From positions 1-36,900 of IMG/VR virus record IMGVR_UViG_3300044612_000246: 36,900 nucleotides of DNA; one strand, written 5' to 3'. The notes below the pieces were generated by a model. That model saw nothing but the letters and a program-made list of their open reading frames with translations. It searched no databases and had not been told where the DNA came from. Below, piece after piece: positions 18,162 to 36,900 of this stretch (positions are counted from its first letter, which is position 1; each line of letters opens with the position of its first letter). This DNA is from a virus. Made by a program: the position numbers and the translations under genes.

Positions 18162-18904
18162 GCTTCTTTACTCAGTTTGGCGCAGGTTCTCCGGCCAAGG
18201 TCACGACGTATACCAGCGGCACTGGTACGTTTACACCGATCAGCACATCGCAATCATGGGCGCGCGTTACTGTTGTCGGCGGCGGTGGCGGCGGCGGTGG
18301 TGGATCTACTGGAACGCCGGGCCGAGGCGGCGGCGGTGGCGGCGGTGGAGCCACAAAAATTCTGTGGGTGAAGCTATCTAACGCATCTTATTCCTATGCT
18401 GTTGGCGCTGGTGGTACTGGCGGCGCAGCGGGTGCTGTTGGTACGTCAGGCAGTCGATCTTATTTTGGCTCTGTCGTTGCGACCGGCGCATCTGCAATGG
18501 TTCAAGCCTTCAACGGAGGCACAGGCGGCTCTGCGACCACCGGAAGCGGAACCATTGGCGAAGGCGGCGGCGGCGGTGGCGGCACTTTTGGCGGCGGACA
18601 ACAGCCCGGTGGAAGCGGTGGCGCTATCGGCCTTGCGGGTGCGAACGCTGGCAATGGAATAGCAACCGGCGGCGCTGGCCCGGACGTAAATTCAAACGGC
18701 GGCGGTGGCGGCGGTGACAGCGTTTACGGCGTTGGCGGCAACGGTGGCGCTGCGAGTGACGCAGGAACCGCAAGTGCTGGCTCTGCTGCAACCGGATACG
18801 GCGGCGGTGGTGGTGGCGGCGGCGGCACAAACTCTGGAACTGCGGGCGCTGGTGGCAATGGTACTGGCGGCTACATTTTGATTGAGGAGTTTATCCAAGC
18901 ATGA
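18158..18904 (+). CDS. Polyglycine-rich adhesin-like tail protein
   Basis: The 248-aa protein starts at ATG 18158 (ATGA with the shaft stop). A short beta N-terminus ([11 protein letters not shown]...) is followed by many Gly runs of 6-9 residues separated by short variable loops, ending [14 protein letters not shown]. The pattern fits Gly_rich tail proteins and recalls polyglycine-II adhesins at fibre tips of T-even phages, where loops between Gly helices contact the receptor. Receptor binding is inferred. Confidence 0.85.
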
Positions 18905-30882: not shown

Positions 30883-30996
30883 TCACCAGTAATCGACGCC
30901 GCTCCTTTTGCTGCGCCAGTTTGGCGGGGGAACCTGCCGCCATTCCAATTGTGCATCTCGGCGCAGTTTGCGCACAAGATCAAATATCCATTTCAC
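30883..30996 (-). CDS. Micro-protein, basic (37 aa)
   Basis: GTG at 30996-30994 overlaps the upstream TGA (GTGA), giving VKWIFDLVRKLRRDAQLEWR, then QVPPPNWRSKRSGVDYW and TGA at 30885-30883. It fills the gap before the SSB-like gene and continues the coupled-start pattern of the operon. Function is unknown, and it could be a chance frame. Confidence 0.5.
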   Translation of the reverse strand: MKWIFDLVRKLRRDAQLEWRQVPPPNWRSKRSGVDYW

Positions 30997-31556
30997 GACT
31001 GCAGCTCATCCTCTGCCGAGAACCACGTTGATTGGCGGCGCAGGAATGTCGGCCAGCTCGCATCCTTGTTGCAGAACGAACGATCTTCGATCAGCACATG
31101 GTTGGTCGGCTGCGCCGTGAATCGATCATTCTCCAACTGCAACACATAGAACTCTTTGCTTTGCTCCGGCTCCGCGCTGAACGCATCACCGATAGGCGCA
31201 ATCGTGAAGAGGTACATGCCGCGGTGCTCGGCGCGACTCTGTAGCCGCACCCGCGCATTCATGCTGGCAAGGAATGGATACTCGAGCACGCTGAACTGGT
31301 AGCCGTAGCAATCCCATGTCTGCGCGTCTGCCGGCGTCCACGGCTCGTCTGCCTCTTTGCTGGCCGCGAGCTGGTGCAGGCCGACGTTGCGGTACACCGC
31401 GCCAGATTCCAGCATGACGTGACAGCCGAGCGCGCGGCCGGGGAATGACGTGAGGCCGAACCACACGGCGCGCAGCCAATCGTGTTCGCCGCAGGCATTG
31501 GGTTGCACCCAGACATATTTGTGGGCCGGCAACGGGCCAGAGTGTGTGTACATCAT
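30993..31556 (-). CDS. Early hypothetical protein
   Basis: ATG 31556 (ATGA with the upstream micro-protein stop) gives 187 aa. The N-terminus (YTHSGPLPAHKYVWVQPNAC) and middle are rich in Trp, His and Tyr and predicted mixed alpha/beta. No family is recognised and no catalytic motif is evident. It lies between micro-proteins in the early operon, so host takeover is a possible role. Confidence 0.75.
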   Translation of the reverse strand: MMYTHSGPLPAHKYVWVQPNACGEHDWLRAVWFGLTSFPGRALGCHVMLESGAVYRNVGLHQLAASKEADEPWTPADAQTWDCYGYQFSVLEYPFLASMNARVRLQSRAEHRGMYLFTIAPIGDAFSAEPEQSKEFYVLQLENDRFTAQPTNHVLIEDRSFCNKDASWPTFLRRQSTWFSAEDELQS

Positions 31557-31663
31557 CGCTCGAAGATCGCCACGGCAATCGCGAGCACTGCGAACACGAT
31601 GCAGACCTTGATGAGCGTGATCGCGTGCGGCATCTCTGCCGGGGTCAGCGTAAGGATGTCCAT
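31553..31663 (-). CDS. Micro-protein with one TM (36 aa)
   Basis: ATG 31663 to TGA 31553. MDILTLTPAEMPHAITLIKV is followed by a hydrophobic CIVFAVLAIAVAIF and a final ER. Both ends overlap neighbours (TAATG and ATGA). It is a single-pass membrane peptide of the early operon with unknown role. Confidence 0.65.
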   Translation of the reverse strand: MDILTLTPAEMPHAITLIKVCIVFAVLAIAVAIFER

Positions 31664-31863
31664 TAAACCTCCACCTTCTGGCGATATTGTTTGTACAGCG
31701 CCTCAGCTTCATCGCGCAGGCCGATGTTGCCGAGCTGGTTGATCATCATGCGAATCTGTAGCGCGCTGTCCCAGCCGGCCTTCCAAGCGCGGTAATCGTC
31801 GCTATATTCGCTGTGCCAGTCATGGGTCTTGAGCTTCTGCTCGAGGTCTTGCAGGGTGGTCAT
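31663..31863 (-). CDS. Small early protein (66 aa)
   Basis: ATG 31863 follows GGAG by about 9 nt. ATG 31878 is an alternative with no ribosome site. It has a helical charged sequence with an aromatic centre (WHSEYSDDYRAWKAGWDSAL). I do not recognise it. It ends inside the next start (TAATG). Confidence 0.65.
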   Translation of the reverse strand: MTTLQDLEQKLKTHDWHSEYSDDYRAWKAGWDSALQIRMMINQLGNIGLRDEAEALYKQYRQKVEV

Positions 31864-32316: not shown

Positions 32317-32526
32317 ATGAAAAAGCAACCACCGGAAACTATCGCCCTGCTCCACGCCGTGGACATACTGGGCGGACAAACGGCCACCGCAAAGAGGCTT
32401 GGCGTAAGCCAGCAGGCGGTGCAGTATTGGATCAGACGTGGCAGGGTGCCTGCCCTGAAGGCTATTCCGCTCGAAGCCGCAAGCGGAGTCTCTAGGAATA
32501 AACTGCGGCCGGACTTGTACCCATGA
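32317..32526 (+). CDS. Cro/YdaS-like helix-turn-helix regulator
   Basis: The 69-aa protein has a helix-turn-helix at about residues 20-42 (GQTATAKRLGVSQQAVQYWI) followed by RRGRVPALKA and an ending NKLRPDLYP, the standard pattern of YdaS/Cro-type phage repressors. It sits at the head of the rightward operon, divergent from the leftward early operon, with two matching palindromes between. With no integrase present it more likely times early expression than maintains lysogeny. Confidence 0.88.
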   Translation: MKKQPPETIALLHAVDILGGQTATAKRLGVSQQAVQYWIRRGRVPALKAIPLEAASGVSRNKLRPDLYP

Positions 32527-34574
32527 AACCAGAACTGACCGCGATCGTGCCGGTCGAGAAGATCCTCGATCTGGCCAAGAAATACCCCGTATTCCCATGC
32601 AGGAGGAACGATGAAAAAGACGCAGAAGGGCGAACGCTCAAAGCCAAAAGCCCACTTACCAAAAACGGATTCAAAGACGCCACGCAAGACGAAGCCCAGA
32701 TTCGTCGATTCTGGGCCAGTCACCCTGACGCACTCGTTGGGGTTCCAACCGGCAGCCGCACCAGTCTCGCCGTCATCGACTTCGATACTCGGTCGGCTGA
32801 CGCAATGGCTCAAGAGTGGCTGGCAGAGAATCAAGCCGCTCTAACTGGTACGCGAGTCCACCAGACCGGCGGCGGTAGCGGCGGCCGGCACTACATCTTC
32901 AGCCTGCCGCACGGTGTCAAGATCCGCGGCGGCGTGTCCGTCACGCTCGGTAAGGTTAAGCGGCAAGGCCTGGACATCCGCGCCGAGGGCGGATACATCA
33001 TCTGGTGGCCGCTGCACTACGGCCAAGGCGGGCCGCTGAATGACATCCGCTCGCTACCCGCGGGGTTGATCGACGAGCGGCGCATGGATCTCGAGCTGCC
33101 GGCAGAGGTGGCGGCCAAAATGCCAGCGAAGCCCGGCACCAGTCAGGACTTCCAGCGAGAGCTGCCGCGCATTACTGAGGCGCTGGCCTACATCGACCCT
33201 AGCCCGTACGACGCGTGGCTCATGGTCGGCATGGCGCTGCACCATGCCAGCGGCGGCGCTGACGATGGCCTTGAGCTGTGGGATGCGTGGGCGAGCGGCG
33301 GCATCACCGGCAGCCTGCCGGATAATTACGCCGGGCGCGCCGATATCGAGTACCGCTGGCAGAGCTTCCATCTGGATCGCGGCAAGGGCGTGACGCTCGG
33401 CAGTCTGTTCAATGCGGCCAAGGGCGGCGGTTGGGTGTCGGTGCCAGAGGCGGTGCGCTTAGGGCCGCCGAAGCGCGAGGAACCGCAGGTGTCCTACGAC
33501 GATGTGCCCGAGGCGCAAGGCATGATGCGGGTGTTAGAGCCTGAAGTACCTGCGCTAAACGTAACAAACGAAACAGCGTCGCCCGTTCGACGCCGTCTCA
33601 CGCTGAGGCCCATCGGCGAGATCGTGAGCGAGCGGCGCGAGGCGACGTGGTTGATCCATAACGTCATCGAGGCCAATGTGCTGGCCGTGCTTGCAGGGCC
33701 GCGCGCCAGCTTTAAGTCGTTCATCGCACTCGACTGGGCCATGAAGATCGCCTGCGCAGGGAACGCGGTGGTGGTGCTGTCTGGCGAAGGCGCTGGCCTA
33801 GGCCGTCGCGCCGAGGCGTGGATGCAGCAGCACGGCCAAGGCCAAGAGCTGGAGGATCTGCAACTGCTGGCGCTTGAGTCGGTGGCCAACCTGAACGCTG
33901 AGGAGGAGATGGCAGGGCTTCAACAGGCCATTGAGGAGGCCGGCATTCGCCCGGCGCTGGTGATCGTCGATACCTTCAGCAAGTTCTCGGCAGGGCTTGA
34001 TGAGAACAGCAACCAAGAGGTGGCCGAGTATCTCTCCAAGCTCACGGTCGGTATCCGCGAGCGGTACTGCTCCACGGTGCTGCTGGTGGCGCACAGCGGC
34101 CACGGCGATGCCAAGCGGCCGAGAGGCGCCAGCGCGCTCATGGCCAACCCGGATGCCGAGTACATCGTCGAGCGGCCGGATGCGCAGGCGATGGTGGTGA
34201 CGGTCACCCGCGAGCGGTTCAAGGATACGGCCAGTATGCAGCCGCTTGCCTTCGAGGCGGTCGAGGTTGACCTTGGCCGGGTGGACAAGTACGGCGAGGC
34301 GGTCAAGTCGCTGGTGATGCGGGAGACGAATGCTCCGACCAAGGCGGCCGCGGTTCACTCGCCCCAAGGCAAGGCGCAGCGGACGATCCTGTTTGCGCTC
34401 AGGGAGCGCCAGAAGAAGTCCGAGACGCCGCTCGTTTGGACGGTCGAGGAGATCCGCCAGATCGGTCGCGAGTGTGGGGTGCCGCGGCAGTCTGTCCACG
34501 ATGCGGTCGAAAAGTTGATGCTGTCACCCTTCCTGAGGGCCACTGTAGGTGGCTCTATGCTGGGTGAACCGTGA
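32523..34574 (+). CDS. Primase-polymerase / RepA-like helicase
   Basis: The 683-aa protein has an N-terminal bifunctional primase-polymerase domain with D86-x-D88 (AVIDFDT), the GGRHYIF histidine motif and EGGYIIWWP. A PriCT-like helical domain follows (about 215-290). A RecA-fold ATPase has a Walker A-like AGPRASFKSF near residue 390 and Walker B LVIVDTFSKF near 480. The C-terminus looks like a winged helix. It would prime DNA and unwind it with host polymerase III, as no phage polymerase is present. The ATG overlaps the regulator stop. Confidence 0.92.
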   Translation: MKPELTAIVPVEKILDLAKKYPVFPCRRNDEKDAEGRTLKAKSPLTKNGFKDATQDEAQIRRFWASHPDALVGVPTGSRTSLAVIDFDTRSADAMAQEWLAENQAALTGTRVHQTGGGSGGRHYIFSLPHGVKIRGGVSVTLGKVKRQGLDIRAEGGYIIWWPLHYGQGGPLNDIRSLPAGLIDERRMDLELPAEVAAKMPAKPGTSQDFQRELPRITEALAYIDPSPYDAWLMVGMALHHASGGADDGLELWDAWASGGITGSLPDNYAGRADIEYRWQSFHLDRGKGVTLGSLFNAAKGGGWVSVPEAVRLGPPKREEPQVSYDDVPEAQGMMRVLEPEVPALNVTNETASPVRRRLTLRPIGEIVSERREATWLIHNVIEANVLAVLAGPRASFKSFIALDWAMKIACAGNAVVVLSGEGAGLGRRAEAWMQQHGQGQELEDLQLLALESVANLNAEEEMAGLQQAIEEAGIRPALVIVDTFSKFSAGLDENSNQEVAEYLSKLTVGIRERYCSTVLLVAHSGHGDAKRPRGASALMANPDAEYIVERPDAQAMVVTVTRERFKDTASMQPLAFEAVEVDLGRVDKYGEAVKSLVMRETNAPTKAAAVHSPQGKAQRTILFALRERQKKSETPLVWTVEEIRQIGRECGVPRQSVHDAVEKLMLSPFLRATVGGSMLGEP

Positions 34575-34686
34575 TGTCCGAAAATGTCCGAAAACGTCCG
34601 AACCGGACATTTTCGGCGGGTCATTTATGTCCGAAAATGTCCGAGAGTCCTTTAGGACTCGGACATTCGGACATGACCTTCGGACA
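34574..34686. repeat. Iteron-like inverted array of TGTCCGA (candidate origin)
   Basis: Nine copies of the 7-mer TGTCCGA (seven perfect) occur within 112 bp. Plus-orientation copies start at 34575, 34585, 34595 (C first), 34628 and 34638; minus-orientation copies start at 34603 (one mismatch), 34659, 34667 and 34680. The first three are spaced exactly 10 bp. Two strong hairpins arise from the inversions: 34588-34600 with 34604-34616 (12 of 13 pairs, 3-nt loop), and 34638-34650 with 34655-34665 (11 pairs, 2-nt bulge, TTTA loop). Position right after the primase-helicase gene suits a replication origin. Confidence 0.75.
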
Positions 34687-34708: not shown

Positions 34709-34912
34709 ATGAAGTACAAGACGGACAAAGGGCAGGGTGTTGCTTTGGTGCAACATGTTGCAGATACGCCAATGGCCAAGCGAATGGTCGAGGGAATGGG
34801 CGAGGAGGGGTTGGCGCTGATGCGTACCTTCCAGCAGCACTTCGGTGCGAAGCTCGTCCACTACCAAGACGAGGCTGGTGCGGTTGGTAAGCGGCCGGGG
34901 TGGGCGGAATGA
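34709..34912 (+). CDS. Small early protein (67 aa)
   Basis: ATG 34709 behind GAGGT is preferred. The frame stays open upstream to 34571, but that part would just translate the iteron array. The sequence is helical (KRMVEGMGEEGLALMRTFQQ) with a basic start. No family is recognised. Its place beside the candidate origin allows an accessory replication role. Confidence 0.65.
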   Translation: MKYKTDKGQGVALVQHVADTPMAKRMVEGMGEEGLALMRTFQQHFGAKLVHYQDEAGAVGKRPGWAE

Positions 34913-36700: not shown

Positions 36701-36773
36701 GGTTTTATGCACGCTCATGCGCATAATCGACTGCTCGGCGCGCAGCGCGAAACACAGCGCGCGCAAGTCATTG
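36701..36773. other. Start of terS-terL intergenic region
   Basis: No gene is seen. An imperfect inverted repeat (36705-36712 with 36719-36726, 7 of 8 pairs) lies just after terS but lacks a following T run. A GC-rich segment of GCGC repeats follows, leading into the DnaA-box region of the junction repeat. Confidence 0.45.
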
Positions 36774-36900
36774 ATTATCAACGGGTTCTGATCGGAGTTC
36801 GTATAATACCCATTATGTTAAATGGTGGATAACCTGTGGATAACACCGATCCTCCTGTTGATAACCGCGTAAATGAGAACGATTCGCATTTACCCCCCCC
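36774..36900. repeat. Terminal direct repeat, right copy
   Basis: Exact second copy of bases 1-127. On the circle the DnaA boxes, TATAAT and palindrome it contains lie about 75-190 bp downstream of the small terminase stop codon and upstream of the large terminase. It should be counted once. Confidence 0.95.
36871..36891. promoter_or_regulatory. Fur-box-like palindrome, junction copy of site 1
   Basis: Same site as 98-118, seen again because of the terminal overlap. Measured from here, sites 1 and 2 are 198 bp apart on the circle. Confidence 0.45.

Follow-up and report, generated by a model that had tools for sequence, protein, structure and literature searches.

Organization of the locus

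In the window, by which we mean the whole 36,900-nt stretch of viral DNA analysed here, the gene for a 683-amino-acid primase-polymerase/helicase is followed by a dense array of short repeats (units), and then by a small open reading frame (ORF). The features of this region are listed below.

32523 to 34574, plus strand: gene for the 683-aa primase-polymerase/helicase (Pfam; PHROGs primase/polymerase families), with Pfam domains Prim-Pol (residues 18-170), PriCT-2 (217-299) and AAA_25 RepA-like ATPase (363-529)
34356 to 34571, plus strand: predicted C-terminal winged-helix domain, residues about 612-683 (AF2 of the domain, Foldseek)
34485 to 34520, plus strand: predicted recognition helix, residues 655-666, with the putative type-determining residues R655, Q656 and D660 (column association with repeat type)
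34575 to 34581, plus strand: unit 1, TGTCCGA, beginning at the base after the TGA stop codon (34572-34574)
34585 to 34591, plus strand: unit 2, TGTCCGA, exact
34595 to 34601, plus strand: unit 3, CGTCCGA, one mismatch
34603 to 34609, minus strand: unit 4, CCGGACA (TGTCCGG on the minus strand), one mismatch
34613 to 34619, minus strand: decayed tenth unit, TCGGCGG, where many relatives have TCGGACG
34619 to 34678: long hairpin with base GGTC/GACC, arms formed by units 5-8, and 2-nt bulges
34628 to 34634, plus strand: unit 5, TGTCCGA, left arm of the long hairpin
34638 to 34644, plus strand: unit 6, TGTCCGA, left arm, 10-bp step
34645 to 34660: tip of the long hairpin, GAGTCC-TTTA-GGACTC
34659 to 34665, minus strand: unit 7, TCGGACA, right arm
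34667 to 34673, minus strand: unit 8, TCGGACA, right arm, 8-bp step
34680 to 34686, minus strand: unit 9, TCGGACA, immediately outside the long hairpin
34709 to 34912, plus strand: 67-aa ORF, the first gene past the array, with no family match and no indicated role at an origin

The window starts and ends with an exact 127-bp repeat (1-127 and 36774-36900), and three related contigs (L005, L010 and L076) are continuous over the corresponding junction; on these two grounds we treat the genome as a closed circular map of 36,773 bp. The repeat may itself be a mere artefact of assembly, 127 being a frequent assembly k-mer length, and requires no biological explanation. Genes for the small and large terminase subunits (terS and terL), portal, scaffold and tail proteins and an endolysin are present; the proteins scanned, a subset of the ORFs, included neither an integrase nor a DNA polymerase. 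A search of genome collections returned distant relatives only (26-46% identity in the best segments) and no host. Elsewhere in the window, a minus-strand gene at 30993-31712, near an exonuclease gene on the same strand, encodes a protein matching PHROG 3704 (annotated ferredoxin, moron/auxiliary category, E 3e-24), and GGCGGCGGTGG repeats at 18277-18837, downstream of a probable tail-fibre gene, are probably glycine-rich coding sequence.

A dense array of inverted units

A preliminary description of this DNA had reported nine TGTCCGA units, seven of them perfect, within 112 bp, with the initial three plus-strand units at 10-bp steps. Exact and one-mismatch counts bear this out: the units span 34575-34686, the first three start at 34575, 34585 and 34595, and exact copies start at 34575, 34585, 34628 and 34638 on the plus strand and at 34659, 34667 and 34680 on the minus strand. 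When any 7-mer was counted over a 120-bp span in 150 dinucleotide shuffles of the genome, the maximum was three copies (138 shuffles) or four (12 shuffles), compared with the seven observed here; the next-best 7-mer cluster in the genome itself holds four. The array is about 50% GC, with no clear A+T-rich unwinding element, and the whole genome about 58%.

The inversions had been said to fold into two strong hairpins, and both were recovered, the first with perfect 13/13-nt arms (34578-34590/34604-34616) and the second being the long, bulged hairpin listed above. Folding of the whole array as single-stranded DNA gave z = -6.2, and the RNA fold of the hairpin is strong too (z = -4.1). No clean GC-skew switch of the kind anticipated at about 34.6 kb was seen: the detrended skew has its minimum at 33.25 kb and its maximum at 27.2 kb, and since these extremes follow gene orientation, GC skew is uninformative on the origin.

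The C-terminus of the primase-helicase is a predicted winged helix

Pfam recognizes only the Prim-Pol, PriCT-2 and AAA_25 domains in the 683-aa protein, with no TOPRIM primase or SF3 helicase, and no sequence relative was found in the PDB. An AF2 model of the isolated C-terminal domain (the last ~70 residues; pLDDT 82) has the H-H-H-E-E order of a winged helix, and the best Foldseek matches to this domain are winged helices, with probabilities of up to 0.99 and none at E < 0.001. The full-length model, which we used for the C-terminus alone (mean pLDDT 49, confident only there and in parts of the ATPase region), places helices at residues 617-632, 641-650 and 655-666 and strands at 671-674 and 677-680.

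The array keeps its place while its unit is replaced

Scanning viral contigs for relatives yielded 80 loci (69-99% identity in the best segment). In nearly all that are long enough, an array with the same layout lies behind the gene, with the unit replaced wholesale: TGTCCGA, TGTCCGG, TGTTGGA (one locus), GGTCAAA or GTACGAAA. Alignment with related phages, which the preliminary description had put forward as a check, thus finds spacing and inversion kept while sequence drifts. Type-matched clusters number 77 in the 80 loci (641 kb), all of them at the stop codon of this gene (-77 to +200) and none elsewhere; where a cluster is missing at the stop codon itself, the contig ends less than 30 bases from it (two contigs) or the cluster starts 51-77 bases earlier (two loci).

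On its own, the motif TGTCCGAAAATGTCCGA is not diagnostic of such arrays: across all viral contigs it has many matches outside the primase-helicase family, and these are unrelated by context. Most of them come from an element with some three units that is shared within a single apparent prophage group. In a set of prophage contigs that appear unrelated (L088, L100, L086, L101 and others), GTCCGA occurs two or three times in steps of 10-11 bp after a conserved 'aggaatcgtattcggtct' stretch, some 0.6 kb from the end of the contig.

More distant relatives have other units. In L183 (CCCGAAA; 33% identity), L187/L273 and L274 a hairpin is again present, its tip consisting of a C-run, an A/T-rich loop and a G-run, and L185 has GGCGACA units with ACACCCCTTAAGGGGTGT spanning the stop codon. 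A scan with L183 found no loci, and one with L187 found two of similar arrangement. Among the distant matches, arrays lie behind L183, L184, L185, L187, Alteromonas phage PB15 and a Klebsiella element and are absent in Pseudoalteromonas C7, Vibrio H188, Pseudomonas DDSR119, Caulobacter GB2A, Shewanella p1 and Ochrobactrum; a 3' array is therefore not universal for PrimPol elements. In Alteromonas phage PB15 (L269, 4038-4240) and Klebsiella plasmid pKp_Goe_795-4 (L270, 5092-5290), dense iterons (TGAACC and TGCGGCA, respectively) directly follow the gene of a RepA-like ATPase, with no obvious hairpin, which suggests a wider class of 3' origins behind RepA-like helicases.

The long hairpin covaries

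In arrays of the GGTCAAA type, 99.4% of the cells for paired positions of the long hairpin do pair, with compensatory changes in 7 of 22 pairs; among the other types the figures are 93% and 13 of 24; the structure was defined from these same sequences, which favours the measure of cells paired, and several of the compensated pairs lie outside the repeat units. None of 500 shuffles matched the observed values, and sliding the partners abolished both measures. The unequal spacing of the units, 10 bp in the left arm and 8 bp in the right, recurs in many relatives, and the hairpin tip is kept where the units change. Base-pairing of the long hairpin is thus supported by covariation.

Unit type follows the predicted recognition helix

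As binder of the array, the preliminary description had suggested either the upstream protein or its small neighbours. Covariation between unit and C-terminus favours the upstream protein, presumably acting through its winged helix: the unit tracks only the last ~80 residues. In two relatives with GGTCAAA units (L009 and L010), most of residues 1-550 match the window protein at 96-100% identity, but stretches of residues 600-683 at only 25-75%; conversely, proteins with diverged bodies (L057-L074) keep much of residues 620-660 at 75-85% where the unit is TGTCCGA. Trees of 69 distinct proteins require 12 changes of unit type when built on residues 1-550, against four, the minimum, when built on residues 600-683. 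Normalised mutual information with the unit exceeds 0.7 at 14 columns, all of them after residue 600 with none before 601; the highest value falls at residue 660, inside the recognition helix, followed by 642, 613 and 624.

Residues 655/656/660 read R-Q-D in all 34 proteins with TGTCCGA units, R-S-E with TGTCCGG, R-H-D with TGTTGGA, K-Q-K/R with GGTCAAA and K-T-A/T with GTACGAAA; they agree with the unit in every one of the 69 proteins, without a mismatch in the three larger types. All independent contrasts agree (9/9 for TGTCCGA, 5/5 for GGTCAAA and 2/2 for GTACGAAA), TGTCCGA being the sole type to reach significance in a sign test (p 0.004). A scan by hairpin tip returned 49 contigs, which overlap heavily with those of the first scan, and the helix matched in all 47 that include the C-terminus. 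Even small changes of unit (TGTCCGA to TGTCCGG or TGTTGGA) accompany changes at 656 and/or 660. To judge from these sequence correlations, residues 655, 656 and 660 probably set unit specificity.

Exchange of wing and array

Three independent pairs of near-identical genomes (window/L009, L048/L221 and L068/L077) differ mainly around the stop codon. The flanks on both sides are mostly 90-99% identical in DNA sequence (80% in places), and identity falls to 36-82% from about -400 (about -200 in L068/L077) to +200 of the stop codon; some pairs are 98-99% identical elsewhere yet have exchanged this cassette. The confinement of the drop to the stop-codon region in all three pairs indicates that wing and array move as a single block.

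Co-transfer alone is no proof of function, as the recognition helix and the first unit are only about 55 bp apart, and the correlation could reflect mere linkage within recombination tracts of about 400-600 bp, some other protein binding the array. We consider this improbable. The tracts stop before the next downstream genes, which are themselves mostly 80-97% identical; the helix residues are constant for each unit across protein bodies that are 66-100% identical; and, as noted above, small unit changes coincide with changes at 656 and/or 660. A functional match is favoured over linkage because the helix residues are fixed, all units of an array change together and there are no mismatches.

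A candidate replication origin

Taken with the predicted fold and the analogies discussed below, these comparisons lead us to conclude that the array is most probably the replication origin of the phage, placed in cis behind its initiator gene and bound by the C-terminal wing of the primase-helicase.

The most concrete of the rival explanations makes the array minor or accessory, with replication beginning through host DnaA at a cluster of DnaA boxes between terS and terL. This gap (1-127 and 36774-36900, the same segment) has four DnaA-box-like sites in 90 bp, two of them exact (TTATCCACA and TTATCAACA) and two with one deviation; GC content is low there (39 of 100 at 36765), and two to four exact boxes recur in this gap, about 2.0-2.3 kb behind the array, in most relatives that reach that far. 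However, in many relatives the array is kept but no such cluster was found (e.g. L013, L020-L024, L026-L030, L055 and L060), whereas the array occurs in every relative with enough sequence, and a phage primase-helicase with its own predicted DNA-binding wing would not need DnaA. We therefore give a DnaA-dependent start little weight, though the cluster, about 2.2 kb from the array, may be a rival or auxiliary start site.

Slightly less probable still is an operator, at which the winged helix or another protein would regulate downstream transcription with no start of replication. The array does lie between two co-directional genes, where a bound oligomer would influence read-through, but nine or ten units with a covarying hairpin would be a great deal for an operator, no sigma-70-like promoter was found near the array, no matching cluster occurs upstream of the gene or elsewhere in the 641 kb, and the protein that covaries is a primase-helicase. 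That the array works as RNA, as a structured 3' end or terminator of the primase mRNA, is very improbable: the covarying hairpin and strong RNA fold would suit it, but no T-run follows the hairpin, which is not among the terminator-like sites, Rfam has no match in the array (its single weak match, M23, below gathering, falls within the primase gene), and both the match between unit and DNA-binding helix and the direct units outside the hairpin would go unexplained.

If the array is indeed the origin, initiation might proceed as follows. The winged helix would bind the TGTCCGA units, helix 655-666 reading the unit, as covariation and the predicted fold suggest. Units at 10-bp steps on one face, together with the inverted units, could then load two oppositely oriented oligomers of the AAA_25 RepA-like ATPase, by analogy with SaPI Rep and P4 alpha, after which the long inverted repeat with its A+T-rich tip might extrude or melt, as pRN1 would lead one to expect, and offer a single-stranded entry for helicase and primase. 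The Prim-Pol domain would presumably prime, and a host polymerase would extend, given that no phage DNA polymerase was seen among the proteins scanned. Across the wider group, joint recombination of wing and array would change origin specificity and leave the enzyme unchanged.

A bolder reading, to our mind slightly less likely than not, is that this is a family of tailed phages whose origins are interchangeable specificity cassettes (wing, array and hairpin), repeatedly swapped between near-identical genomes, perhaps against cross-talk with co-infecting relatives or origin-stealing satellites, and that residues 655/656/660 form a readable recognition code. Sequence comparison alone here points to an origin, its reading domain and three probable specificity residues, and the natural swaps are ready-made controls for origin recognition in PrimPol/RepA-like phages. 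They also provide an apparently orthogonal set of initiator/origin pairs, and pose the question of why these phages keep changing them.

Comparison with known systems

To our knowledge, few origins have been located in PrimPol-encoding tailed phages, where initiation is mostly inferred. A literature search, with most subscription journals outside its scope, found no description of the present combination or of natural specificity swaps.

In phage-inducible chromosomal islands (PICIs), the DNA just 3' of the initiator gene serves as the origin, and a plasmid can replicate from rep-ori (PMC6092414). The C-terminal domain of SaPI/PICI Rep recognises iterons, the initiator-helicase sometimes being fused to a primase (PMC6092414, PMC7581432), and that of SCCmec Cch2 binds direct repeats downstream of its own gene (PMC7581432). 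The phage locus is like SaPI/PICI rep-ori in that its iterons lie directly 3' of an initiator-helicase gene, from the base after the stop codon and at the same place in related loci. Strong covariation suggests that its C-terminal domain may set iteron specificity. The phage locus is unlike SaPI/PICI rep-ori in its Prim-Pol and RepA-like AAA_25 ATPase, in having iterons as the arms of a covarying hairpin, and in the absence of an A+T-rich melting region between its two iteron sets, which only about 18 bp separate; nor is the phage a satellite dependent on the virion proteins of a helper, as it encodes TerL, portal, scaffold, tail and endolysin.

The alpha protein of satellite phage P4 has a C-terminal winged helix like the one predicted for the 683-aa protein, a likeness at the level of fold only (AF2 and Foldseek). 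The helicase of P4 alpha belongs to SF3. Its primase is of the TOPRIM type (PMC4234260), whereas in the phage the primase is a PrimPol and the ATPase is RecA-type. Replication of the Sulfolobus plasmid pRN1 needs a stem-loop that lies downstream of its PrimPol gene, orf904, and is conserved in structure but not in sequence; bacteriophage BIP-1 has been noted as pRN1-like (PMC4234260). A PrimPol-helicase-winged-helix protein with such a stem-loop behind its gene is thus common to pRN1 and the phage. The helicase of pRN1, however, is SF3 and its origin lacks iterons, while the phage has AAA_25 and nine iterons that form most of the stem, and its units can be paired with a putative reading domain.

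RSF1010 has comparable parts in RepA, RepB' and RepC (a RepA-type ring ATPase, a primase and an iteron-binder), and an oriV with iterons and ssi priming hairpins. Its work is shared by three separate proteins (PMC4234260), whereas in the phage all functions are proposed to reside in one polypeptide. Replicon segments recombine in ColE2-related plasmids, according to Hiraga et al. 1994 as cited in PMC5304414, and chimeric Pseudomonas replicons exchange segments by recombination as modules without mutual specificity (PMC5304414). Parts of the phage replicon likewise recombine, but, unlike those of Pseudomonas, the phage cassette carries both partners, wing and array. As some defining features of each class are absent, we do not assign the phage origin to the PICI, P4 alpha or pRN1 class; the candidate origin appears instead to resemble a mixture of the three systems.
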